From an uncultured Clostridia bacterium (lineage in GTDB: Bacteria > Bacillota > Clostridia > Oscillospirales > Oscillospiraceae): a DNA stretch of 45,191 nt. The notes beneath the pieces were generated by a model. It was not told the origin of the DNA, did not search any database, and saw nothing but the letters and a program-made list of their open reading frames with translations. Below are positions 24,284 to 44,866 of the stretch, one piece after another. The number at the start of each line of letters is the position of its first letter. Position 1 is the first letter of the stretch. The DNA lies in assembly GCA_946407675.1 (NCBI GenBank), contig CAMJPK010000004.1, positions 1-45,191 on the forward strand, in the 5' to 3' direction. Made by a program: the position numbers and the translations under genes.

Positions 24284-26680
24284 ATGAAAAAGATGCTAGC
24301 CCTGCTCCTCGCGCTGGCCATGTGCCTTGCGCTGTGCGCCTGCGGCGGGGAGAAGCCGGCCGAGACCCCGGCACCCAGCGCCGCCCCGGGCGGCGTGATC
24401 CCCAAGAGCGGCGGAGAAACGCCGACGGAAACGCCCACGGCCACGCCGGAGCCGACGCCGGAACCGACGCCGGAGCCGGTGGAGATCGAGATCGCGGACC
24501 TGTGCGCCGAGAGCGGGACGGTCATGGAGGCCGGAATCTATCCCGTGACCTACTCGTATACGCTCCCTGCGGTCTCCGGCCCCGAGACGCCTTACATCGC
24601 GGAGCTCAACCGGACGGCGCAGGCGCTCTATGACGACCTTGTGAAGGGGGCGTGGAGCAGCTACGAGGAATACGGCAGCCTGTCGCATTACTGCGCGGCC
24701 TACTATACCGGCGCGCGCGACGGCGTCAACTCCATCCTCATCACCGCCGACAGCGACATCGATATGGACGAATTCTGGTGCTTCAACTTCGACGACGCCG
24801 GCAACGAAGTCGACAACGCGGCCGTGCTGCGCGCCGCCGGCGTGACGGAGGCGGCGTTCCTTTCCGCCGCGCGCGACTATCTGGAGGACCTTACGGACCT
24901 CTCCGCATACTTCGGCGACGACGACGGGTGGAAGCAGCTGCAGAAGGACACACTGGATGAAAAGAACCTGAACGCCGGCATCCCCATGGCCATCCTGCCC
25001 GACGGCAACCTCGGCTTTGTCGCCACGGTCTTCACGCCGGCGGGCGGCGGCGAATACCAACAGGTGCTGGAGCTTGAGGAGGACGGAAGCGTCTCCCCGG
25101 CGGAGCTCGGGAGAATCGTGCGCGACCAGCTCGTCGGCACCTTCCTGGAGATGCCCGACAGCAACGATCCGAACGCGGCCGAGCAGGTGTTTTACGAATT
25201 CTTCCCCGTCGGCGACGCGCTGACGATGGAGGCCACGTATTTTGACACGGATGCCGGCGACGTCTATTCCTACTGGGCCGTGGACATCATCCCGGACGAT
25301 CCCGCGGCGCTTCTGCGCGCGGACAACGGCGGCACGCGCGTGCGCGTCATGTCCCATTGCCCCGACGTGTTCGGCGGCAGCTATTTCGGCGAGCCGGGGT
25401 ATTACACCCTGTATACCTTCGAGGGCGGCGTCGTCTTTGCGGACTTTGAGGGCGGCACCTCGCTCAACGGCTCGGACGACGACGTGTACCTCATCCGCGC
25501 CTACCGCGACGATTACGGTCTGGAGAATCCCACGCCCGACACGGACTACGACCGCTTTGACTACGACGCCGCAGAGGCGGCCGGTCTGGCCGGCGTGTGG
25601 AACGGCGCCTACCGGGATGCCGATTATGCCCTGCACGCGCTCACGCTGGAGATCACGAACTGGGGCGAGCTGAAACTGCGCGACTGCGTCGAGGACGGGA
25701 TCCCGCGCATTCTGGCCGGCAGCTACTACATCGCGCAGGCCGACGACGAATCCGGCGCGCCCGAGGGCGCGGTGGTGTTCAACCTTGTGCGCGTAGGCGG
25801 CTACAAGATGCCGGTCACCGGCTACTGCGACATGCTCGTCGACGAGGACGGAGATCTGCTGATCCAGGAGGATGATGAGAGCTGGCTTGACACGCTGACG
25901 CAGTGCGGCGAGGACCAGTGTGCCGTCCTGCACCGCGCGGCGGACGTCCGCCGCACCGTCGAGCCGGCGGTGTTCGCGCTGGAGGAAAACGAGCGCGTCC
26001 ATGTGGACATCGACGCCGACGGGACACCGGAGGAGCTCGGCTGCTACTTCGAGCGCGACAGCTATGACGCGATCGACACGGCCGTGTTCGTCGTAGAGGG
26101 CGAGGAGTATACCCTCGGCGACATGGGCGTTTACGATGGGGACATCTATCTGATGGTCCCGCCGACGAGCGGCGCGGTGTATTTCTGGATCGACGGACTG
26201 AGCGACAACGATTACCACGTCCTCACGGTCGTCGGCGTCAGCCAGGACAACGTGTGGTACGTCGAAGACTTCCTCGCCGGCTTTGCGGAGACGCCGACAG
26301 ATCCGGAGCAGGTGCAGTTGCGTGTCCGGACGCAGATCCTGAGCACCATGAACGGCGTGCGCACCTACCGCGTCGGCGGAAGCGGGCTGCCGGAGGCGAC
26401 CGAGCCGTTCTACCATATGAACAGCGACCTGACGCTCACGGTCCAGCAGGACGTGGACTGCTGGGTGGTCTCGCCCGACAGCGGCGAGACGATCGACACC
26501 GCGACCCTGTCCGCCGGTGAGAAGGTCAAGCCGCTGCGCACGGACGGCAGCAGCTTCATGGACCTGCAGCTGGAAAACGGCGACGTCCGCCGCGTCTGGA
26601 TCGACATGAGCGACTGGCCGCAGACCATCGACGGCAGCAGCATCTCGGATATCTTCGACGGCGTACGCTTTGCGGGATAA
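24284..26680 (+). CDS. Acidic lipoprotein with Thr-Pro-Glu-Pro linker; N-terminal half DUF3298/RsiV-like
   Basis: LALCACGGE lipobox; TPTETPTATPEPTPEPTPEP linker; YPVTYSYTLPAVSGPETPYIAELNRTAQALYDDL... Confidence 0.7.
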   Translation: MKKMLALLLALAMCLALCACGGEKPAETPAPSAAPGGVIPKSGGETPTETPTATPEPTPEPTPEPVEIEIADLCAESGTVMEAGIYPVTYSYTLPAVSGPETPYIAELNRTAQALYDDLVKGAWSSYEEYGSLSHYCAAYYTGARDGVNSILITADSDIDMDEFWCFNFDDAGNEVDNAAVLRAAGVTEAAFLSAARDYLEDLTDLSAYFGDDDGWKQLQKDTLDEKNLNAGIPMAILPDGNLGFVATVFTPAGGGEYQQVLELEEDGSVSPAELGRIVRDQLVGTFLEMPDSNDPNAAEQVFYEFFPVGDALTMEATYFDTDAGDVYSYWAVDIIPDDPAALLRADNGGTRVRVMSHCPDVFGGSYFGEPGYYTLYTFEGGVVFADFEGGTSLNGSDDDVYLIRAYRDDYGLENPTPDTDYDRFDYDAAEAAGLAGVWNGAYRDADYALHALTLEITNWGELKLRDCVEDGIPRILAGSYYIAQADDESGAPEGAVVFNLVRVGGYKMPVTGYCDMLVDEDGDLLIQEDDESWLDTLTQCGEDQCAVLHRAADVRRTVEPAVFALEENERVHVDIDADGTPEELGCYFERDSYDAIDTAVFVVEGEEYTLGDMGVYDGDIYLMVPPTSGAVYFWIDGLSDNDYHVLTVVGVSQDNVWYVEDFLAGFAETPTDPEQVQLRVRTQILSTMNGVRTYRVGGSGLPEATEPFYHMNSDLTLTVQQDVDCWVVSPDSGETIDTATLSAGEKVKPLRTDGSSFMDLQLENGDVRRVWIDMSDWPQTIDGSSISDIFDGVRFAG
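24443..24478 (+). repeat. Three tandem 12-bp units ACGCCGG(A)(G/A)CCG encoding TPEP x3
   Basis: acgccggagccg acgccggaaccg acgccggagccg, read directly. Confidence 0.9.
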
Positions 26681-26771: not shown

Positions 26772-27311
26772 ATGAATGTTGAAATGACGATCCAGCGTAT
26801 GTTTGACAAGTTCCCGCGGCAGTTCAAGAACCGCGCGGACTGCTACAACAATCTGTTCTGCAAGCCGGGCAACGCCTATGCGTGGGACCACGGCCAGCTT
26901 GTTCCCATCGTCGTTCTGGAGAAGGAGTACACGCCCGAGGAGATCGAGCGCGTCGAGAGTAAGTGCAAAGCGCGCTTTGTCAACGGGAAGGCGTTCCAGC
27001 ACAAGCTGATGAGCATCCGCGACGAGATGATCACGAACGCCATGGAGAAGATCCGCGAGGACCCGTCCTACGCCTACAAGGTGAACTGGAAGGCGATCGA
27101 CGAAGCGCCGGACGACAGCTATCACCGCCGCGAGCGGGCGCGCCGCTGGTACTTCTACAACGACGTGTACAATGAGGTGGACTTCTGCGCCGACCGCGTC
27201 AAGCTCTTCAATTATCCCGACGACATCCAGCCGGACTGGCTGGCCGCCATCGAGGAGTGCAAGCAGATGCTGCGCGAGGACGGATACGACGTCGACAGCG
27301 TGAAAAAGTAA
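26772..27311 (+). CDS. Conserved-looking hypothetical protein (179 aa)
   Basis: RBS-like aggaggggg upstream; MNVEMTIQRMFDKFPRQFKNRADCYNNLFCKPGNAYAWDHGQLVP; terminator follows. Confidence 0.75.
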   Translation: MNVEMTIQRMFDKFPRQFKNRADCYNNLFCKPGNAYAWDHGQLVPIVVLEKEYTPEEIERVESKCKARFVNGKAFQHKLMSIRDEMITNAMEKIREDPSYAYKVNWKAIDEAPDDSYHRRERARRWYFYNDVYNEVDFCADRVKLFNYPDDIQPDWLAAIEECKQMLREDGYDVDSVKK

Positions 27312-32717: not shown

Positions 32718-33953
32718 TCAGACCTTGCCGCGGCTGCGGATGGCGTCGAAGCTCGCCCTGGCGGCGGCGACGTCGTCCTCGGTCACGTTCGCGGCGCCGT
32801 AACGGGCCTTCAGATAGACGCGGCGCAGCGTCTCTTCCTCCGGCATGCTCGCCCCCGACATGCGCTCCGACTCGGTCAGGATCTCCTCCGAGGTGTCCGA
32901 GGCGGTGCGCTGCAGGCCGTTTTCGCGCAGATAGTCCAGATAGTCACGGTAGATCTTCCGGACGGTCTGCGCCCGGCCGTGCACCGCCTCCGGCTTGGCC
33001 TTGCGCCGCTTGCGGTCAGGCGTGTAGGCCTCGGTCTGCTCGTATTCGGCGCGCTCCGCCGCAAGGGCCTTGCCGCGCCGGGCGAGCTTCACGATCAGCC
33101 ACACCGCGGCGAACAGAAGCACGCAGATGATGAGGAACGCGCCGACGGTGAGCGCCTGATCCGTAAAGCGCGTATCCTGATGGATTTCCGGCTCCTCCTT
33201 CGAAAACGTCTCATCGGTCGCGACGTACATCGTCCCGGTCGGAAGGATGTCAATTTTCGCTGTCGGCGCCGGCGTGTGGATGGGCGCCTCCACCGCGGCG
33301 TCAAAGCGGAACAGGCCGAACAGCCACCGCAGGAAGCGCCGCAGCGGCGAGACCAGCAGGAGCACGAGCGGCCGGCTGTGCAAAAACAGCTGATACAGCA
33401 GCAGGGACACGCCAACCGCCAAGAGCAGCGAGCAGGCCACCGCGATCACGTTGGCCGTGTGCCAGCGCAGGTCCATTTTGGCGTTCATCTGCATACCGCG
33501 CATGGCCACGACGCCCAGCAGCATGAACGCCGCCAGATAGCCCAGAGATTCCAGCGGGAGGGCCGCGCCGTTGAACAGCGTAAAGCTGATGGAGTGGACC
33601 GCGATGACAAAGGCGCTGATGAGCAGCATCCAGCGATAGGCGGAGCGGTAGTCGTAGATCGCGATGCCGAAGCGCCCGATGGTGAGATACAAGATGAAAT
33701 ACAGCCATGCCAGGCCGGGGAGGATCAGCAGCGTGCTCAGCTTTGTGAAGGCGAAGCAGGCGCCGGGCAGCAGGGAGAGCACAAGCCGCAGCGGGAGACT
33801 TTGCACCCCGACGGCGACGAGCCCCACGAGCAGGCAGGCCAGCGCGAAACAGGCCATGGGGAGCGCCCACGGCTGGAAGATGGGAAAAAGACTCAGTATG
33901 GAAAAGTAGAAGCAGATGTCTCCGGCGATCCGGAGCGCGGCGGTTCGTTTCAT
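32718..33953 (-). CDS. Multi-TM membrane protein of a MoxR/DUF58 cluster (DUF4129-like C-terminus)
   Basis: Start at MKRTAALRIAGDICFYFS; several TMs; C-terminal IYRDYLDYLRENGLQRTASDTSEEILTESERMSG; 4-bp overlap with DUF58 gene. Confidence 0.65.
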   Translation of the reverse strand: MKRTAALRIAGDICFYFSILSLFPIFQPWALPMACFALACLLVGLVAVGVQSLPLRLVLSLLPGACFAFTKLSTLLILPGLAWLYFILYLTIGRFGIAIYDYRSAYRWMLLISAFVIAVHSISFTLFNGAALPLESLGYLAAFMLLGVVAMRGMQMNAKMDLRWHTANVIAVACSLLLAVGVSLLLYQLFLHSRPLVLLLVSPLRRFLRWLFGLFRFDAAVEAPIHTPAPTAKIDILPTGTMYVATDETFSKEEPEIHQDTRFTDQALTVGAFLIICVLLFAAVWLIVKLARRGKALAAERAEYEQTEAYTPDRKRRKAKPEAVHGRAQTVRKIYRDYLDYLRENGLQRTASDTSEEILTESERMSGASMPEEETLRRVYLKARYGAANVTEDDVAAARASFDAIRSRGKV

Positions 33954-34996
33954 GTGCGTTTCTCCTCTCCGAACAGAACACAGAGCTTGGTGTCGGAATA
34001 CGCCTGCAGCCGCCGCAGCGCCTGCTGTCCCGCCCCGCTCAGCGCGGGCGTGACGACGATGTAGCTGTCCGTGCCGCTGCGGTGGGCGATGCACCGGTCC
34101 ACAAGCGCGGAAAAGGAACGGTAACCCGCCAGCCGGGAAAGCCCGATGCGGCGCAGAATGAAAAACAGATGGCTGCGGCCCAGCCCCTCCGGCAGAGACT
34201 GCATATCGCCGTTGGAATAGAACGCGTAGGGGATCTTGCGTGCCTCAAGCTGCTCACAGACCATGCGCGTCAGGGTGAGGCACTGTTCGGAAATGCGGGG
34301 GCTCGACGCCTCCATGTTGAGCAGCAGCGTGACGTTGTGCTCCACCGTGTGGTCAAAAACGCGCACCGTCAGATGGCCGGCCTTGGCCGTCTGGAACCAG
34401 GAGATCTGCTTCATGGGCTCGCGGCCGGTATAGTCCCGATAGCCGAGCAGCATGGTGGGGTCCTCGTGGATAAAGCGGCGCACGGACACATTGCCGAGGA
34501 AGCCGCCGAGCGTCTGCAGCTTTTCCAGCGGGCAGCGCCCGGCGGTGCAGACGACGCGCACGCCGATGTCCCGGGTACGCACCGCGGGCTTCAAACCGAG
34601 CAGGTCGCTCGTTTCCAGATAGCACTGGCCGAGGTCGAACACGCCGCGCCGTTTCATCGAAAGGTGGACGACGCCCGAAAACCTGCGCCGGGGCAGCAGA
34701 TAGAAGTGGTGATCCACGCACATGCCGGTGAACGACCGCGAGACATGGCGCGCCGACCATTCCGCGTCCTCCCGCACGGCCACCGCGTCGTTGAGCTGCA
34801 GGCCGAAGCCGACGTAAAGCAGGGGGAAGCGGCTGGTGTTGCAGACCGTATAGCGCAGCGTGATGATCTCGTCCGGCTCGACCAGGTCCATGTCCGCGCT
34901 GAACGTCACATACAGCCGCCGCAGGTCGTCGCGCCGGCTGAGCTTTTCCATGACGGCGATCAGGATGAGAGAACAGATAAAGACGAAGAAGATCAT
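33950..34996 (-). CDS. DUF58 domain-containing protein
   Basis: DPTMLLGYRDYTGREPMKQISWFQTAKAGHLTVRVFDHTVEHNVTLLLNME; adjacent MoxR. Confidence 0.85.
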   Translation of the reverse strand: MIFFVFICSLILIAVMEKLSRRDDLRRLYVTFSADMDLVEPDEIITLRYTVCNTSRFPLLYVGFGLQLNDAVAVREDAEWSARHVSRSFTGMCVDHHFYLLPRRRFSGVVHLSMKRRGVFDLGQCYLETSDLLGLKPAVRTRDIGVRVVCTAGRCPLEKLQTLGGFLGNVSVRRFIHEDPTMLLGYRDYTGREPMKQISWFQTAKAGHLTVRVFDHTVEHNVTLLLNMEASSPRISEQCLTLTRMVCEQLEARKIPYAFYSNGDMQSLPEGLGRSHLFFILRRIGLSRLAGYRSFSALVDRCIAHRSGTDSYIVVTPALSGAGQQALRRLQAYSDTKLCVLFGEEKRT

Positions 34997-35934
34997 AGCT
35001 TTTCCAGCGGCACGGCCACGTCGCTGAGCATGTTCCCGATCAGCTTTTCCGCGCTGAGGTGGCTGTCCTGTATCACCGTGAGCCGGTGGGGCAGCACGAA
35101 GGCCGCCTCCTTCTTCACGTCCTCGGGGATCACGTAATCCCGCCCGTCCAGCGCCGCCGCGATCTGGCTGGCGCGGTAGAGCGCGAGCGTGCCGCGGGCG
35201 GAGACGCCGCAGGTCAGAAGCTGGCTGGCGCGCGTGTATTCCACCAGGTCCATGATATAGCCCGCGATCTCGTCGCTGACGCTGACGGCGGGGAAGTCGG
35301 CGCGGAGAAGCGCCAGCTCCTCATCGCTCACCACCTGCGAAAGTCCGGCGAGGATCGTCTTGGAATCCGGCCGCCGCATGACGCCGATCTCCTGCTCGCG
35401 GGTCATGTAGCCCAGCGACAGGCGCATGAAAAAGCGGTCCATCTGCGCCTCCGGCAGGGGGAAGGTGCCGAAGGATTCGACGGGGTTCTGCGTCGCCATG
35501 ACCATGTAGGGCTCGGCCATGGGATAGCTCGTCCCGTCCACGGTGATCTGGTGCTCCTCCATGACCTCCAGCAGCGCCGACTGGCTGCGGGGCGTGGCGC
35601 GGTTGATCTCGTCGGCCAGCACAAGGTTCGTAAAGAGCGGGCCGGGGCGGAATTCAAATTCACCGAGCTTCTGGTTGTAGAAGTGGATGCCGGTCAGGTC
35701 GGAGGGCATCAGGTCGGGCGTGAACTGTATGCGCTTGAAGCCGCTGCCGATGCTTTTGGCAAAGGCGCGCAGCAGCATGGTCTTGCCCGTGCCGGGCAGG
35801 TCCTCCAGCAGGATGTGGCCCGAGGCGATCAGGCAGATGATGATCTGCTCGACCGCGTCCTCCTTGCCGACGATCACCCTGGCGCAGTTATCCGTGATTT
35901 TTTGCTTGAATGTGGTAAAACGCGTGGTATCCAT
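34993..35934 (-). CDS. MoxR-family AAA ATPase
   Basis: GHILLEDLPGTGKTMLLRAFAKSIG; RIQFTPDLMPSDLTG; LVLADEINRATPRSQSALLEVMEEHQITVDG. Confidence 0.96.
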   Translation of the reverse strand: MDTTRFTTFKQKITDNCARVIVGKEDAVEQIIICLIASGHILLEDLPGTGKTMLLRAFAKSIGSGFKRIQFTPDLMPSDLTGIHFYNQKLGEFEFRPGPLFTNLVLADEINRATPRSQSALLEVMEEHQITVDGTSYPMAEPYMVMATQNPVESFGTFPLPEAQMDRFFMRLSLGYMTREQEIGVMRRPDSKTILAGLSQVVSDEELALLRADFPAVSVSDEIAGYIMDLVEYTRASQLLTCGVSARGTLALYRASQIAAALDGRDYVIPEDVKKEAAFVLPHRLTVIQDSHLSAEKLIGNMLSDVAVPLEKL

Positions 35935-35963: not shown

Positions 35964-38822
35964 CTAGATGGCTTGCTGCGCCTGCGTCTCCGCTTCATAG
36001 ATCAGCTCGGCGAGCGTCTGGAACAGGTGGTCCGAATCGACGGGCTTGCTCAAATGCGCGTTCATGCCGGCCTGCAAAGAGCGCTGCACGTCCTCGTCGA
36101 AGGCGTTGGCGGTCAGCGCGATGATCGGGATCGTCTTGGCGTCCGGACGGTCCAGCGCCCGGATGGCCGCGGCGGCCTCCAGGCCGTCCATGACCGGCAT
36201 GCGCACGTCCATGAGGATCGCGCTGTAGGTCCCGGGCGCGCTGGCGGCGAACTTGTCCACGGCGATTTTTCCGTTTTCGGCGTGGTCGGCCTCCATGTCC
36301 TCCAGCGAGAGGATGTCCATCATGATGTCCGCGTTGACCTCCATGTCCTCTGCCAGCAAAATGGAGCGTCCGGCCAGCGGCGCGCGCTGCTTTTCCTTGA
36401 ACAAACTCATGTTGCTGCGTCGCGCGATCCGCTCAAACTCCCCGATCACGTTGGAGGCGAACAGCGGCTTGGCGAGGAAGCTGTCCACGCCGGCGTCCAG
36501 CGCCTCATCGAGGATCTCATCCCAGTTGTAGGCGGTCAGAATGATGACCGTGGTCTCGCTGCTGTAGCGCCTGCGGATCTCCTTTGTGAGCGCGATGCCG
36601 TCCATATCGGGCATCTTCCAGTCCACGAGCACCAGGTTGTACGGCGCCTGCTTCGCGTGCTGCAGCTCCAGCATGTGGAGCGCCGCGTCGCCGCCGGCGC
36701 AGGCGTCGGCCCGTATGCCCATTTCGTCCAGCACCGTTCTGGCGTGCTCCGCGGCGATCTCCTCATCGTCGACGACGAGGACGTGCAGCGACGAGGGATC
36801 GATCGTGCTCTCATCGGGCAGACCGGAGCGGCCGCTGTCGCGCAGCGTGATCACCACGGTGAACTCCGTCCCGACGCCCTTTTCGGATTCCACGGAGATC
36901 GTGCCGTTCATCATCTCCACGATGCGCTTCGTGATCGCCATGCCGAGGCCGGTGCTGCCATACTTGTTCTTGCGGCTGGAATCCTCCTGCGAGAAGGCAT
37001 CGAAGATCTTCGGGATGTAGTCCTTGTCCATGCCGATGCCGGTGTCCTTGACGCGGAAGCGCAGCGTGGACTGGTCCTCAAACTGGGCGGTGCGCTCCAC
37101 GGTCAGCGTGACGGAGCCGGGCGCCTCGGTGAACTTGATGGCGTTCGACAGGATGTTGATCAGGACCTCCTTGAGCTTCAGATCGTCGCCGATGTAGTAG
37201 TCGTCCACCCGGCTCAGCATCCGGCATTCGTAATGCAGGCCCTTGTCGCTGCACTGGCTTGTGACCATGGTGTTGATCTGCTCGAGCATCGCCGCGAAGG
37301 AGAACTCCTCCCGCCGCAGCACGATCCGCCCGGATTCGATGCGGCTCATGTCGAGGATGTCGTTGATCAGGTCCAGCAGATGCTTCGCGCTCTCGCCGGT
37401 CTTTTCCAGATACTCGCGCGTCTGCGGCGTGAGCGTCGCGTCGCGCAGCGCGAGATTGTTCAGGCCGATGATGGCGTTCATCGGCGTGCGGATCTCATGG
37501 CTCATGCTCGAGAGGAACGCGGTCTTGGCCTCGTTTGCCGCCTCCGCCATGTCCAGCGCCTCCGCCAGCGTCTGGTTCTTTGCCATGGTATCGCGCATCT
37601 CCGCGTCGATCGTCGTGAAGCCGAGGCCGATCGCGTGGACGATGTGGTCGTCGCGGTCCTCCGCGCGGCGGACGCCCGCAATGCGGAGCATCTGATAGAA
37701 TTCCATGCCGTCGCGCCGCGCCAGAAAACGGTAGGCGATGAGGGGCTGCGTCGCCAGCGCCGCGCGGACGTTGTCCGGCTCGATGAAGCTCAGGAAGCCC
37801 TCGCGGTAGGCGTCGGTGACGCTGTTGCGGGCATAGCGATCAAACAGCTCGCGGTAGGAGAAGTGGTCGCCTTCCCCAAAGGGCCGCTTATAGCTGTGGT
37901 CGATGCGGTAGCACACGCAGTCGTCCGTGTCCAGATTGGCATAGTATACGCTGCTGTAGTCCGAGGCCATGGCGGTGATCATCGCGTTGGCCTGCGTGGT
38001 GGAGTGCGTGATGTAATCGCGCAGGGCATCGCGCAGCCCGGAGATGCGCCTGCCCACCGCCTGAATATCGTCCGTCTGCAAATCCGGGACGGGCGCGGCG
38101 CCGCCCCCGGCGTATTCCCGGGACAGCGAGGCCAGATCCCCGGCCAGATCGTTCAGGTCCCCCCGGATCGTCTGCATCTCGCGGCTGTACCGTCCGGTGA
38201 GGAAGAAGGTGATCGCGATGCTGATGAGCAATATGACCGCGCAGCCGATCAGGATCGTCTGCTCGTTGCGGCGGATCTGGTCCTCATACCAGGTGGCGCT
38301 GAAGTCCGCGGCGACCACGCCGGCCACCTTTCCGGCGGAGTCGAACACCGGACTGAAAGCGCTGTAGAAGCGGCCCCATTCATCCTCATAGGGCGTCTCG
38401 TCCACAGACGCGACCCCGCGGCTTGCGGCCAGAAGCGCATCCGTATAGACCACGGGGGAGCCAAACTCGCCCGGCGCGACGGGGTCCGGGTCGATGCCGA
38501 AGGTGAAGGTTCCGTCTCCTATGTCGCGGACGTAGTAGATGTAGTCCAGATTGATGTTGTCCAGGAAGCGCGCCAGCGTGTCATAGACCTCCTGATACTC
38601 CGGCGTTCCCTTGTCCTGCGCCGTCAGCCGGCCCAGCACGTCGCCGTCGAGCATGGCCGCCGCCGTGTTGACGACGTCCAGCATGCTCTCATTGATCTGC
38701 GTTTTCGTCGCGGTGCGTGACTGCCGTGTCAGTACGGCGCCGAGCGCGAGATTTGTGATCAGCATAAACAAGGACACCAGCGCGATCGCCCGCGTCCGCA
38801 TGCTCAGCTTTTTCCGGCCCAT
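35964..38822 (-). CDS. Hybrid sensor histidine kinase with extracytoplasmic sensor and two receiver domains
   Basis: FLSSMSHEIRTPMNAIIGLNNLAL; NILSNAIKFTEAPGSVTL; RFRVKDTGIGMDKDYIPKIFDAFSQEDSS; VLVVDDEEIA..VLVDWKMPDMDG and ILLAEDMEVN..ILMDVRMPVMDG. Confidence 0.95.
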   Translation of the reverse strand: MGRKKLSMRTRAIALVSLFMLITNLALGAVLTRQSRTATKTQINESMLDVVNTAAAMLDGDVLGRLTAQDKGTPEYQEVYDTLARFLDNINLDYIYYVRDIGDGTFTFGIDPDPVAPGEFGSPVVYTDALLAASRGVASVDETPYEDEWGRFYSAFSPVFDSAGKVAGVVAADFSATWYEDQIRRNEQTILIGCAVILLISIAITFFLTGRYSREMQTIRGDLNDLAGDLASLSREYAGGGAAPVPDLQTDDIQAVGRRISGLRDALRDYITHSTTQANAMITAMASDYSSVYYANLDTDDCVCYRIDHSYKRPFGEGDHFSYRELFDRYARNSVTDAYREGFLSFIEPDNVRAALATQPLIAYRFLARRDGMEFYQMLRIAGVRRAEDRDDHIVHAIGLGFTTIDAEMRDTMAKNQTLAEALDMAEAANEAKTAFLSSMSHEIRTPMNAIIGLNNLALRDATLTPQTREYLEKTGESAKHLLDLINDILDMSRIESGRIVLRREEFSFAAMLEQINTMVTSQCSDKGLHYECRMLSRVDDYYIGDDLKLKEVLINILSNAIKFTEAPGSVTLTVERTAQFEDQSTLRFRVKDTGIGMDKDYIPKIFDAFSQEDSSRKNKYGSTGLGMAITKRIVEMMNGTISVESEKGVGTEFTVVITLRDSGRSGLPDESTIDPSSLHVLVVDDEEIAAEHARTVLDEMGIRADACAGGDAALHMLELQHAKQAPYNLVLVDWKMPDMDGIALTKEIRRRYSSETTVIILTAYNWDEILDEALDAGVDSFLAKPLFASNVIGEFERIARRSNMSLFKEKQRAPLAGRSILLAEDMEVNADIMMDILSLEDMEADHAENGKIAVDKFAASAPGTYSAILMDVRMPVMDGLEAAAAIRALDRPDAKTIPIIALTANAFDEDVQRSLQAGMNAHLSKPVDSDHLFQTLAELIYEAETQAQQAI

Positions 38823-39270: not shown

Positions 39271-39294
39271 AACGCCGCCCGATCGGGCGGCGTT
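39271..39294. terminator. Perfect palindromic terminator between convergent genes
   Basis: AACGCCGCCCGATCGGGCGGCGTT followed by TTCTAT on the + strand. Confidence 0.75.
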
Positions 39295-39310: not shown

Positions 39311-41785
39311 TCAGAAGGCCATCTCGGTGCGGGAGATCAGGTCGTCCTGGCAGTTCTTGAAAACCTCGACGAAGTAGGCCGAGAAGCCCGCCACGCGCAC
39401 GACGAGGTCGCGGTAATTCTCCGGGTGCTTCTGCGCGTCGCGCAGCGTGTCGCCGGAGACGATGTTGAGCTGCAGCTCCATGCCGCCGCGGTCGAAGTAG
39501 GTCTGCATGACGCCCTTGAGCTTTTCCAGACCGCCCGCGCCGCGCAGCGCCGTGGGGTGGAACTTCATGTTGCACAGCGTCCCGTTGCCGTAGAGCCCCT
39601 GGTCGAAGTTCAGCACGGAGTTGATGAAGGACAGCGGCCCGCTCTTGTCCATGCCCTGCACGTTGGAGATGCCGTCGGAGAGCGGATCGCCGAATCTGCG
39701 TCCGTCGGGCGTGGCCCAGGTGAACCAGCCGAAGATCACGTTGGCGGTGACGGGGTAGCAGCCCGCGGCGAAGCCGCCGCGCGGGCCGGTCGCCCGGTTG
39801 ATGGCCTTCGCGTAGGTGCTGGCGGTGAAGTCGACGTATTTGTCGGCCTCGGGGTTGCCGTTGCCGTAGCGCGGTACGCGGCCGTTGATGAACTGGCGCA
39901 GGTCCTCGTAGCCCTCCCAGTTGTGCATAATGGCGTCGTACAGCTCGCGGGTGGTGGCGAGCTTCTCCCGGAAGCAGACGTAGTCGATGATGTTCAGGCT
40001 GTCGGCCACGTTGCCCAGACCGATGCAGGAGTTTCCCGTGGAGTTGTACTTCGCGCCGCCCCACATGACGTCCTTGCCGGACTCCATGCACCCTTCCATC
40101 GTCGCGGAGACCATGGGCAGCGGGTTGTGGAAGGCGGCCATGCTCTCCCACATGTTGATGTTCGTGCACTGCCACTTGCAGAAGAAGTCGAACTGCGTCT
40201 TGACCGCCGCCAGCACCTCGTCCATGGAGTTCATCTCGTACAGGTAGCCGGTGGCCGGGCCGGTGCGGTGCGCCTCGGCGCTGTCGCCGGCGGCGCCCTT
40301 CTCGCCGTCCCCGGTCAATAGCATGTTGCCGGACTTCGGCATGCCCATCGGATTGATGCCGTTGTTGATGGCAAGCAGCATCGCGTTGGCGATGTTCAGG
40401 TAGCTCTCGGTGCCGGTGCCGCCGGGCTGCGCCCACTCATAGCCGCCGATGCCGGGCTCCACGCAGCCGTGCAGGCTGTAGTTGCGCGCATCCTCCAGCG
40501 GGATGCCGCGGGCCATCAGCGCCTTGATGATGATTTGGTCGGACTCGAAGGTCGGCACGCCGCCGGCGCGCTTCGTCGTCTCAATGGCGGCTTCCCACAG
40601 CGCCGCGGGCGTGCCCGGGTGGACGCGCAGGGCCTGCGGCGGGTCGTGCAGCACGAGGCGGCCGGAGGACTGGAGCATCATGTAGGTGACGGGGTTCGTG
40701 GCGTCGTTGCCGTCGCGGTCCACGCCGCCGAGCGTCATGAGCTGGCCGGAGGTGTAGCCCGGGCCGGACTTGGTCGCGCCCTCGGACCAGATCTTGTTGC
40801 ACTCGGCCACCTTCAGATAGAAGAGGTCGAGGAGCTCCTGCGCCCGCTCCGGCGTGATCGCGCCGCTGGCGATGTCCTGCTCGTAATACCGGCCGAGGTA
40901 CTGGTCCACGCGGCCGTAGCTGATGCCGTGCATCTGCCCGTCCATGCACATGGCCAGCTGGTAGAGGTAGATGCACTGCACCGCGTCGTGGAAGCCGCGG
41001 CAGGGGTTCTTCATGATCCAGTTCAGGCAGTCGGCCATCTCCAGAAGCTCCTGCTTCCTTGCCGGGTCGGCGCACGCCGCCGCCTGCCGCGCGCACTCCG
41101 CGGCGTAGCGCTCGGACCAGTGGATGATGCCCTCGCTGACGATGGAGACGGCGCGGTAGAAGTTATACTTGTTGTTGTCGCTGCCGAAAATGCCGGCCTC
41201 CTCCATCTCGGCCATCTTCGCCTCGGCCTCGCGCTGTATGGCGCCGAAGCCCTTTTGGGTGGCCGTCCAGAAGTTGGCGGTGAAGTGGCCGACGGGGGAC
41301 TGGCAGTTGTCCTTCGGGCCGAAGAACAGCACGCCGTTGCCGGTCATGTGGTCGCGGTGGTAGCGGGGCATGTACTCGTCCACGATGGCCGACATGGCGT
41401 TCTTGTCCCAGAAATCGCCGGTCTCCAGCAGGTATTTCTCATCCTCCGGGTCGATGTCATAGGGGTCCTGCTGGCGCTTGGGGATCGTGCCGGCGCGCAA
41501 TTCCTTCATAAACCAGTTGAAGCTCGTCTCCGGGTAGAGCGCGCAGCAGCGGTAGGTCGTGCCCTGCCAGCCGACGATGACCTCGTCGGGATTGACCAGC
41601 ACGGGCATGTTTTCAAAGAGATTGCGCAGGTTCTTCGCGCGCTTGAGGATGCCCGTCAGCTGCGGGTTTTGCATATAAAACTCCGTGACGAGCCGATAGC
41701 GGTTGATATCGATGCGCGGCCGCGTGCTGCGGTATTTCTCGCGGATGCGCTGTACCCGGTCGGTGACCGGCTTCCATTCAAACAT
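39311..41785 (-). CDS. Glycyl radical enzyme, pyruvate formate-lyase superfamily, subtype unassigned
   Basis: 824 aa; active-site YSLHGCVEPGIGGYEW (GCVEPG at 40451-40468); glycyl-radical VRVAGFSAYF (39371-39400); N-terminal PFL-like domain. Confidence 0.92.
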   Translation of the reverse strand: MFEWKPVTDRVQRIREKYRSTRPRIDINRYRLVTEFYMQNPQLTGILKRAKNLRNLFENMPVLVNPDEVIVGWQGTTYRCCALYPETSFNWFMKELRAGTIPKRQQDPYDIDPEDEKYLLETGDFWDKNAMSAIVDEYMPRYHRDHMTGNGVLFFGPKDNCQSPVGHFTANFWTATQKGFGAIQREAEAKMAEMEEAGIFGSDNNKYNFYRAVSIVSEGIIHWSERYAAECARQAAACADPARKQELLEMADCLNWIMKNPCRGFHDAVQCIYLYQLAMCMDGQMHGISYGRVDQYLGRYYEQDIASGAITPERAQELLDLFYLKVAECNKIWSEGATKSGPGYTSGQLMTLGGVDRDGNDATNPVTYMMLQSSGRLVLHDPPQALRVHPGTPAALWEAAIETTKRAGGVPTFESDQIIIKALMARGIPLEDARNYSLHGCVEPGIGGYEWAQPGGTGTESYLNIANAMLLAINNGINPMGMPKSGNMLLTGDGEKGAAGDSAEAHRTGPATGYLYEMNSMDEVLAAVKTQFDFFCKWQCTNINMWESMAAFHNPLPMVSATMEGCMESGKDVMWGGAKYNSTGNSCIGLGNVADSLNIIDYVCFREKLATTRELYDAIMHNWEGYEDLRQFINGRVPRYGNGNPEADKYVDFTASTYAKAINRATGPRGGFAAGCYPVTANVIFGWFTWATPDGRRFGDPLSDGISNVQGMDKSGPLSFINSVLNFDQGLYGNGTLCNMKFHPTALRGAGGLEKLKGVMQTYFDRGGMELQLNIVSGDTLRDAQKHPENYRDLVVRVAGFSAYFVEVFKNCQDDLISRTEMAF

Positions 41786-41819
41786 CTTGGTTCCTCCTTC
41801 CAGGGCGTGATCGGCGCGG

Positions 41820-42104
41820 TCAGGCCTCGTACTTTTCGAGGACCAGATCGCGCACGTATGCTTCCTTCAGTTCGACCAGCCGCGCCGTGTGCGCCTGCCG
41901 GACGTGTGCGGTGACCGCGTCGGCGTCGGCGTACTTTTCCACAAGGAACAGCTCGTCGCCGCCGTCGGCGGGGATGTAGAAATCGTAGGCGCGGTTTCCC
42001 GCCTCGGCGCGGGCCGCGCCGTCGATCCCCTCCGCCTTGATCTGACGCAGGAATTCGTCCCGCATCCCCGGCTTGCATCGGAATGTCACATTGAATACCA
42101 GCAT
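41820..42104 (-). CDS. Antibiotic-biosynthesis-monooxygenase (ABM)-fold small protein
   Basis: 94 aa; MLVFNVTFRCKPGMRDEFLRQIKAEGIDGAARAEAGNRAYDFYIPADGGDELFLVEKYADADAVTAHVRQAH. Confidence 0.8.
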   Translation of the reverse strand: MLVFNVTFRCKPGMRDEFLRQIKAEGIDGAARAEAGNRAYDFYIPADGGDELFLVEKYADADAVTAHVRQAHTARLVELKEAYVRDLVLEKYEA

Positions 42105-42135
42105 GCTTCCATCTCCACGGATCGTGCAATACGCA

Positions 42136-43638
42136 TCACAGCGCGTGGTCGTAGAGGATGAGATCGCCCCAGGCGTCGAAGCGCGCCCGGTTCGGGTCAC
42201 GCAGCAGCGTGCAGGTCGTGTCGATGCGCATGGCGCAGCGCGTCTCGCGCGTAAACGGCTCCCAGTGCGGCCCGACGGCGGCGTTGTTGGGATCGCCGGT
42301 GCGGGCAAAGGCCGTGAACGCGCCATGCAGCTTCGCGTGGATGTCCTGCTGCACCTCCATCGGCGTGCCGTTGTAGAAGGACATGGGGGAGGGATCGTAG
42401 GTGTCCAGTCCGGGCGCGATGTCCATGGAGTGCGTCGCGCCGACGCCCATCTGGGCGCACATGGGCGGGACAAAATCAAAGCGATAGGCGTATACGCGGT
42501 TCCACTCGCTCTGCGCCAGCGCGCAGCGCGTGGCGTCCACCCAGAACATGCGGTCGGTGCACCAGGCCACGGCGGCCGCGGGCTCCGGCATGTCGCCGTA
42601 GACCTTGCGGAAGGCGTCCAGATGGTCCAGCCCGCCGCCCAGACGCAGGCAGGTTTCGATGTTCGCCCAGCTCTTCGGGACGTTGCCCAGCATGCAGAAC
42701 AGTCCGCCCTCGTCCCGGCAGGTGCCGACGAGCAGCGCAACGTCCTTCGCGTTGCCCTTTGCGAGCATCCGCCAGGGATAGTCCGGGATCAGATCGTCGA
42801 TGACCGGGCCGGTGAGAAAGATGCCCTGATGCGCGTCGTTGTGCTTCGCCATGACGGCGCCGCCGCCGCGGACCAGCTCCGCCACGGGCATGGTCTTCAG
42901 CGTTTCCGCCGCCTGCGCCGGCGTGAGACCGAGCTCCTCGAAAAACAGCGCGTTGTTGAGTTCATGGACATAGTGCGGCGTCGCGTTGCCGGAAAGCCCG
43001 CTCATGGGGATGGCCTTCTGGAAATAGCCCTGCGCCGCCGGGGAGGCCAGCAGGCAGTAGACGCCGGTGCCGCCGGCGGACTCGCCGCAGATGGTGACGT
43101 TGCCGGGGTCGCCGCCGAAGGAAGCGATGTTCTCATGCACCCATTTCAGCGCGGCGATCATGTCCGACACCGCGCAGTTGGAATCAAAGCCCTCGCCGAG
43201 GTCGGAAAAATCGTAGAAGCCCAGCGCGCCGAGGCGGTAGTTGAAGCTGACGCCCACGATGCCGTCGCGGGCGAAGGCGGAGAGGTCGTGGGCCGGCGCG
43301 GCGGATTCGCCCATGTGGTTCGCGCCGCCGTAGATGTAGACGAAGACCGGCGCGCCCTCGGCCTGCTCGGGCGCCCAGACGTTCAGATAAAGGCAGTCCT
43401 CGCTGGCCGGCGCATGCATCACCAGCAAATCCGCCATGGGGCCTGCCGCGAACTGGACCGACGAGTTGCCCATGGCCTTGCAGGGGCGCGCCTGCGTCCA
43501 GGGCTCCGGCTCCTGCGCGCGGCGAAAGCGCTTATCCCCGACCGGCGGGGCCGCAAAGGGGATGCCGAACCAGCGGCGGATGCCGCCCTCCGCAAAGCCC
43601 TCGACCGGGCCGTATTTTGTCTGTGCGATCAGATTCAT
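42136..43638 (-). CDS. Type B carboxylesterase/lipase family protein
   Basis: Start at MNLIAQTKYGPVEGF; FGIPFAAPPVGDKRF; DCLYLNVWAPE; VYIYGGANHMGES; FGGDPGNVTICGESAGG. Confidence 0.93.
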   Translation of the reverse strand: MNLIAQTKYGPVEGFAEGGIRRWFGIPFAAPPVGDKRFRRAQEPEPWTQARPCKAMGNSSVQFAAGPMADLLVMHAPASEDCLYLNVWAPEQAEGAPVFVYIYGGANHMGESAAPAHDLSAFARDGIVGVSFNYRLGALGFYDFSDLGEGFDSNCAVSDMIAALKWVHENIASFGGDPGNVTICGESAGGTGVYCLLASPAAQGYFQKAIPMSGLSGNATPHYVHELNNALFFEELGLTPAQAAETLKTMPVAELVRGGGAVMAKHNDAHQGIFLTGPVIDDLIPDYPWRMLAKGNAKDVALLVGTCRDEGGLFCMLGNVPKSWANIETCLRLGGGLDHLDAFRKVYGDMPEPAAAVAWCTDRMFWVDATRCALAQSEWNRVYAYRFDFVPPMCAQMGVGATHSMDIAPGLDTYDPSPMSFYNGTPMEVQQDIHAKLHGAFTAFARTGDPNNAAVGPHWEPFTRETRCAMRIDTTCTLLRDPNRARFDAWGDLILYDHAL

Positions 43639-43712
43639 GTTTCTGCTCCTTTCCGATGTGTCGTATCTGTCGATGGATCTGTCCATGTGTTTTTGTACCG
43701 TTTGCCGCGCGC

Positions 43713-44807
43713 TCAGATGACCGGGGCCGTCGCGCGCAGGGCTTCGGCCAGCGAAAACTCCTTCGCTTCTTCTTCCCCGCGCAAAATGCGTAGGCCGCCC
43801 TCGGCCAGCGCCTGCATCTCGTTTTCGCCGGGGAAGACGTGGATCGGCGCGAGGAAGGCCGTGTAGTCGGAGATCATCTGCGTCATGCGCGCGCTGTACG
43901 CCAGCCCGCCTGTCAGCAAAATCGCGTCCGTCCGTCCCTTGTGGACGATCGACAGCTCGCCGATCGACTTGCTGATCTGATAGGCCTGCGCGCGGTAAAG
44001 CAGCTTTGCCTTCTCGTTCCCGGCGTCGATCATCGCCTCGATCTCGCGGGCGTCCGAGGTGCCGAGATAGGCCTTCAGGCCGCCGTTGCCGCGCATCTTG
44101 TCCTTCATTTCCGCGTAGGTGTATTTTCCGCTGTAACAGAGCTTCACGATCGGGAAGATCTGCGTAAAGCCGCTGCGCTCCGGGGAAAAGGGCCCATCGT
44201 CGTCGCCGATGGAATCCACGATCTGTCCGCCCGCAAAGGCCGAGGTGGAGATCCCGCCGCCCATGTGGACGACGATCAGCCGCAGCTCGTCCAGCGCCCG
44301 GCCCTGCTCCTTCGCAAAGCGCATGGCCGTCGCGCGCATGTTCAGCACGTGGCAGCTCGAGTTGCGCACGATGTCGGGGAAGCCGGTGATGCGCGCAAAG
44401 TCGGGGAGCGACGCGGCGGTCACGGCGTCGTAGATGTAGGCGCGGATGCCCGCCTCATCCGCCAGCGTTTTCCCGATCACGCCGCCGAGGTCGGAGGCGT
44501 GCGGCGAGGTGTAGTCCTCGTTGAGCAGCGCCGCGGCGAGCGCGTCGTTCACGCGGTAGCCGCCGGTGCGAAGCCCCCACAGCATCCCGCCGCGGCACAT
44601 GATCGCGTCCAGCTGCGACAGCGCGACGTTGTGTTCGCGCAAAAACTGCCGCACGCTCTCCGTCCGCGCGCTCAGCTGGGCGGCCAGTGTCTCGCCCGGC
44701 GCGGCCTGATACGGCTGCGCGCCGGAGGCCAGCATCTCCTCGTTCTGATAAAGCGCCAGCTTGGTGCTGGTGGAGCCGGGGTTGATGATGAGCTGCAGAT
44801 AGGCCAT
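43713..44807 (-). CDS. buk: Butyrate kinase (or branched-chain fatty acid kinase)
   Basis: LIINPGSTSTKLALYQNEE; MCRGGMLWGLRTGGYRVND; HASDLGGVIGKTLADEAGI; VVHMGGGISTSAFAGGQIVD; ILLTGGLAYS. Confidence 0.93.
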   Translation of the reverse strand: MAYLQLIINPGSTSTKLALYQNEEMLASGAQPYQAAPGETLAAQLSARTESVRQFLREHNVALSQLDAIMCRGGMLWGLRTGGYRVNDALAAALLNEDYTSPHASDLGGVIGKTLADEAGIRAYIYDAVTAASLPDFARITGFPDIVRNSSCHVLNMRATAMRFAKEQGRALDELRLIVVHMGGGISTSAFAGGQIVDSIGDDDGPFSPERSGFTQIFPIVKLCYSGKYTYAEMKDKMRGNGGLKAYLGTSDAREIEAMIDAGNEKAKLLYRAQAYQISKSIGELSIVHKGRTDAILLTGGLAYSARMTQMISDYTAFLAPIHVFPGENEMQALAEGGLRILRGEEEAKEFSLAEALRATAPVI

Positions 44808-44837: not shown

Positions 44838-44866
44838 ATTATAACATGGCGCGCCCGCCGAGAAAA
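44838..44866 (-). promoter_or_regulatory. Promoter for the buk-led unit
   Basis: Minus strand TTTTCT-(17 nt)-TATAAT. Confidence 0.6.

Follow-up and report, generated by a model that had tools for sequence, protein, structure and literature searches.

The locus analyzed here raises the question of how a glycyl radical enzyme (GRE) can function when no activating enzyme is encoded next to it, which kind of substrate such an enzyme might act on, and whether the genes that precede it belong to its pathway. GREs catalyze anaerobic reactions that are out of reach for most other enzymes. Many of the GREs that are abundant in the gut have no known function (PMC11574389). The window, that is, the whole stretch of 45,191 nucleotides that was analyzed, is contig C4 of a 2.12-Mb metagenome-assembled genome (MAG; 193 contigs, 85% complete). 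Four genes follow each other on its reverse strand: butyrate kinase (buk, 43713..44807, TIGR02707 383 bits with a cut-off of 289), a type-B carboxylesterase (42136..43638, 500 amino acids from the best start, PF00135 E 5e-91), a 94 amino acid ABM-fold protein (41820..42104, PF03992 E 8e-12), and the GRE (39311..41785, 824 amino acids). A preliminary description of the locus gave these genes, their positions, and intergenic gaps of 74, 31, and 34 nt, and all of this is confirmed, the gaps exactly. The promoter proposed there upstream of buk is plausible with respect to an extended -10 element (TGTTATAAT, 44838..44846, reverse strand, read by eye), but the -35 element is poor and the promoter is missing from the output of a consensus scan. 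A 10-bp GC-rich hairpin directly 3' of the GRE stop codon (39271..39294, reverse strand), a likely terminator based on sequence and fold, folds better than shuffled sequences (z -3.5), and the transcript therefore probably ends with the GRE. A hybrid histidine kinase is encoded shortly beyond the GRE, also on the reverse strand (35964-38822), and a MoxR-like ATPase is found beside a DUF58-like protein and a membrane protein (32718-35934).

The reading frame of the GRE is intact and contains a PFL-like domain with the Cys loop (residues 8-686, E 1e-166) and a Gly_radical domain with the C-terminal RVxGF/Y glycine loop (residues 703-806, E 7e-30; both Pfam), as expected for the GRE superfamily. 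Both previously noticed signatures are present: GCVEPG, with the Cys-loop motif Cys441-Val-Glu443 (40457..40465, reverse strand; Cys and Glu are conserved in 73 out of 73 clade members), and VRVAGFSAYF, with the glycyl radical site Gly800 (39386..39388, reverse strand), which is common to every aligned GRE of the loci studied. A Cys-x-Glu motif defines the CxE eliminase class of GREs (PMC8473560). The window GRE carries this motif in place of the adjacent Cys-Cys pair of PFL and scores 107.5 bits against the PFL equivalog (cut-off 994), which agrees with its earlier assignment to the catabolic, eliminase-like GREs and not to PFL itself. Its scores are below all NCBIfam equivalog cut-offs, the best being that for sulfopropanediol dehydratase (566 bits, cut-off 1000), followed by CutC (457, cut-off 1050), HypD (437, cut-off 1100), indoleacetate decarboxylase (346, cut-off 1100), and 4-hydroxyphenylacetate decarboxylase (319, cut-off 1150). 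An AlphaFold2 model built from 49 relatives (mean pLDDT 90) was compared with solved structures using Foldseek; diol dehydratases take the top ranks (TM about 0.9, 30-34% identity), and the CutC, hydroxyproline-type, anhydrohexitol, isethionate, and sulfopropanediol enzymes show 27-32% identity. In a tree of 97 GREs, which was made by a quick method and has long branches, the window GRE is located inside a fully supported clade of 84 rows, and the seven references (glycerol dehydratase [GD], two propanediol dehydratases [PDs], CutC, the N-methyl-hydroxyproline dehydratase 8id1, YbiW, and PflD) are all outside this clade; HypD, IslA, HpsG, HPAD, and BSS were compared by NCBIfam score and/or structural identity only. 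The comparison with known subfamilies that the preliminary description had called for thus places the GRE outside all characterized ones that could be tested by cut-offs, tree, and structures, and on this sequence evidence it is a member of a new, uncharacterized eliminase subfamily outside every solved subfamily. Nearly all relatives with at least 55% identity belong to MAGs of Oscillospiraceae and Lachnospiraceae from the rumen and animal guts; the sole cultured species among them, Acetitomaculum ruminis (L059, 59% identity), carries a linked activase.

No activase was detected in the window, as had been noted before: a tblastn search with two clade activases returned nothing significant (best E 6) and no activase remnant downstream of the GRE. 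The description as an orphan GRE holds locally, but the unlinked state is untypical since an activase of about 319 amino acids lies directly downstream of the GRE in 15 out of 20 close orthologs with at least 74% identity and readable downstream DNA (L020-L027, L029-L032, L034, L036, and L065). These neighbors are GRE activases of the TIGR02494 type that keep the CxxxCxxC motif, and the one that was tested (L021) matches none of the specific activase equivalogs. The downstream activase is missing in the window and in L019, L028, L072, and L074. The window GRE pairs in the tree, on a starred branch, with L019, its ortholog from a sister genome (93% identity), and the next relative (L020, 91% identity) has the activase; over the whole clade tree, activase adjacency changed state at least 13 times. 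Judged from this distribution, the missing activase is a derived state that arose by loss or relocation in this genus, on the common branch of the window and the sister. Loss on that branch is what would be expected if the window GRE were a decaying gene that is no longer activated, but the intact frame, the presence of all catalytic residues, and a dN/dS of 0.11 between the two activase-less orthologs make such decay very unlikely. The dN/dS value indicates that the GRE stays under purifying selection despite having no adjoining activase.

The source of activation was sought in the rest of the genome. Contig C9 of the same MAG ends inside a GRE gene (L094, G000:C9:1-987) that is 91% identical to a GRE on contig C163 of the sister genome, and both genes diverge from the same ABC transporter. 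Downstream of the C163 GRE, at a distance of no more than about 35 nt, the sister encodes a clade-type activase (69% identity to that of L021); the next genes there code for an OYE-type flavoenzyme, an FAD protein, a 2-hydroxyacid dehydrogenase, and a nitroreductase. Because C9 is syntenic with C163, the activase of this paralogous GRE locus most likely lies just beyond the C9 break, and supply of the activase in trans, as first suggested in the preliminary description, is the most likely arrangement. The glycine loops of the two paralogous GREs are nearly identical (VRVAGFSAYFVEVFK and VRIAGFSAYFVEVYK) and differ only by conservative changes, which makes activase sharing plausible. A genome-wide search for activases returned a single match above the TIGR02494 cut-off (L103, C29:6706-7590), which is not beside a GRE. 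This only complete activase of the assembly might itself activate the window GRE and all other GREs of the genome, and relatives too have far fewer activases than GREs. However, it shares only 43% identity with the clade type, the sister has both an activase of this 43% class (C19) and the clade-type activase beside the C163 GRE, and the C9 locus follows the C163 arrangement up to the assembly break, so that C29 as the shared activase is unlikely. The surroundings of the C29 activase gene include a URO-D-like gene and a TctA-type transporter.

The assembly contains about 12 GRE places, several of which are fragments at contig ends. Two clade GREs (L094 and L095, the latter at G000:C70:9764-10630) are cut within the gene by contig ends; conserved paralogs may therefore break the assembly, and GRE and activase counts in this MAG are unreliable. 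The orphan status of the window GRE is accordingly real at the locus and partly an assembly effect at the level of the genome. A further contig of 7.7 kb carries two adjacent GREs that are 38% identical to the window GRE (L093, G000:C103:1858-6808) and no activase. Among related genomes, the sister has 11 GRE loci and three strong activases, G003 has 16 GREs and six activases, and G006 has about 25 GRE loci and four strong activases within 2.2 Mb, with counts that include distant types such as PFL and are affected by MAG incompleteness. Six clade GREs stand in tandem on one strand within 18 kb of the G006 genome, which also holds L037 (C16:71622-89582), an arrangement found in part in L052 and L091, and up to 23 Gly_radical matches per genome occur in the family to which the window belongs. 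These genomes clearly do not follow a pattern of one activase for each GRE. A literature search on GRE expansions or shared activases returned nothing specific.

The genes upstream of the GRE had been interpreted as parts of one pathway, in which the esterase frees a substrate, the GRE converts it, the kinase makes ATP from the resulting acyl phosphate, and the ABM protein acts as a helper. Four genes on the same strand with gaps of 31-74 nt and a plausible promoter before buk agree with this interpretation, as does the fact that the sister genome keeps an esterase ortholog less than 6 kb from its GRE. The sister esterase (80% identity, 5.5 kb from the GRE) is, however, encoded on the opposite strand, buk and ABM are missing from the 29 kb read around the sister GRE, and none of the three genes was found beside GRE orthologs of 74-91% identity, which have genes for OYE, URO-D-like, LarC-like, DUF169, and FAD oxidoreductase proteins upstream instead. 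Among the genes of the run, neither a phosphotransacylase nor a CoA-acylating enzyme was recognized. A conserved buk/esterase/ABM operon was rejected on the synteny in the sister and the orthologs, and the ester-to-acyl-phosphate pathway is not supported and improbable; the three genes probably adjoin the GRE through rearrangement. Elsewhere in the window, a 798 amino acid lipoprotein-like protein (24284-26680) and a 175 amino acid protein (26784-27311) have no Pfam match, and the latter resembles a protein encoded near the GRE of the sister genome (L019_15).

Conserved partners of the wider subfamily were identified by comparing genes within two genes of a GRE with those at a distance of at least four genes. 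Clear enrichment was seen only for activases (36 near, 2 far) and OYE-type flavoenzymes (18 near, 3 far), the latter with a p value of 6e-4 that is optimistic because the loci share ancestry and are not phylogenetically independent. A URO-D methyltransferase-like gene occurs beside several GREs (L022, C9, and C70) but was rejected as a partner (3 near, 4 far, p 0.78). Fe-S flavoenzymes of the OYE-type family act as reductases of bile acids, heme, and flavonoids (PMC11574389). Together with the enrichment, this suggests that the wider subfamily couples elimination to a subsequent reduction. No flavoenzyme is encoded beside the window GRE, and its genome lacks a close counterpart of the flavoenzyme that accompanies the 80% orthologs (identity to the L026 enzyme reaches 37% at best).

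The substrate pocket was examined by mapping residues through PMC8473560 and aligned structures. A Gly (Gly347, 40745..40747, reverse strand) occupies the beta3 position of the substrate-packing aromatic residue (GD Y339, CutC F395, HypD F340) in 73 out of 73 clade members; an aromatic residue at this position is typical but not universal for CxE eliminases, being found in GD, both PDs, CutC, 8id1, and YbiW, with Gly in PflD. The second aromatic position (GD Phe333, CutC Phe389) is Gly in the window GRE and mostly small elsewhere in the clade, and the position of GD Asp447 is Thr in the window GRE and never acidic in the clade. Conserved in the clade are His167 on beta1 (41285..41287, reverse strand; 73 out of 73 members), equivalent to GD His164 and HypD His160, and the beta2 His equivalent to GD His281. 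GD residue numbers beyond those of the published mapping follow the GD structure and were matched to the alignment numbering. A change from Ser282 to Gly was dropped as a unique pocket feature because CutC likewise has Gly at this position. The replacement of the aromatic residue in all 73 members and the absence of the Asp447 equivalent indicate that the pocket is probably larger than in the C2-C3 diol or choline enzymes, as far as aligned residues can tell, since other loops could fill the space; a larger pocket would in turn suggest a bulkier substrate.

Taken together, we consider it reasonably probable that the window GRE is a functional eliminase with an enlarged pocket from a new subfamily that has multiplied in Oscillospiraceae and Lachnospiraceae of the rumen and gut, that it is activated in trans through a C9-type locus, and that the upstream genes are unrelated to it by pathway. 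In the proposed mechanism, the adjacent activase was lost or moved in this genus, and the GRE would be switched on by the activase of the paralogous locus, with the radical parked on Gly800. A thiyl radical on Cys441 would abstract a hydrogen from the substrate, Glu443 would assist the 1,2-elimination, and water or another leaving group would probably be removed from a bulkier hydroxylated or ring compound of plant origin. In the wider subfamily, the product may then be reduced by the BaiCD-like Fe-S flavoenzyme. More tentatively, the radiated subfamily could represent a substrate-diversified catabolic toolkit for bulky plant compounds in the rumen, served by a few shared, promiscuous activases and Fe-S flavoenzymes. 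If true, this would mean that these GREs use radical chemistry to strip hydroxyl or other groups from molecules such as alicyclic or phenylpropanoid compounds, a chemistry so far undescribed for GREs; quinate or shikimate as the substrate found no support in the literature and is speculation only. The wide distribution of the subfamily in rumen and animal-gut MAGs, its distinctive pocket, and the repeated decoupling of GRE and activase make shared activation and substrate radiation directly testable.

Among known systems, the diol dehydratases (GD 1r8w; PDs 9rco and 5i2a) share with the window GRE the fold (TM about 0.9), the CxE Cys loop, the glycine loop, and the beta1 and beta2 His residues. 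As they are the closest solved structures (32-34% identity) and the equivalents of GD His164 and His281 are conserved, the window GRE might be an unrecognized glycerol or 1,2-propanediol dehydratase. This is very unlikely: GD Asp447, Phe333, and Tyr339 are replaced by Thr, Gly, and Gly, sequence identity is 34-36%, and the window GRE does not group with GD and the PDs, which are 58% identical within their own clade. The choline TMA-lyase CutC is likewise a CxE eliminase (TM 0.90) but is 32% identical and differs in Asp216, which is His in the window GRE, and in Phe389 and Phe395, which are both Gly. The isethionate lyase IslA (29% identity by structure) has Gln193 where the window GRE has His167, an equivalence taken from the published mapping, which equates the IslA site with HypD His160 (PMC8473560). 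The anhydrohexitol-6-phosphate dehydratases PflD and YbiW are not in one clade with the window GRE (29-30% identity), and in contrast to these systems no PTS genes were noticed beside the window GRE. Both are, however, eliminases for larger substrates, a hexitol phosphate in the case of PflD (PMC12441222; structure 8id0), and PflD carries Gly at the aromatic site as the window GRE does.
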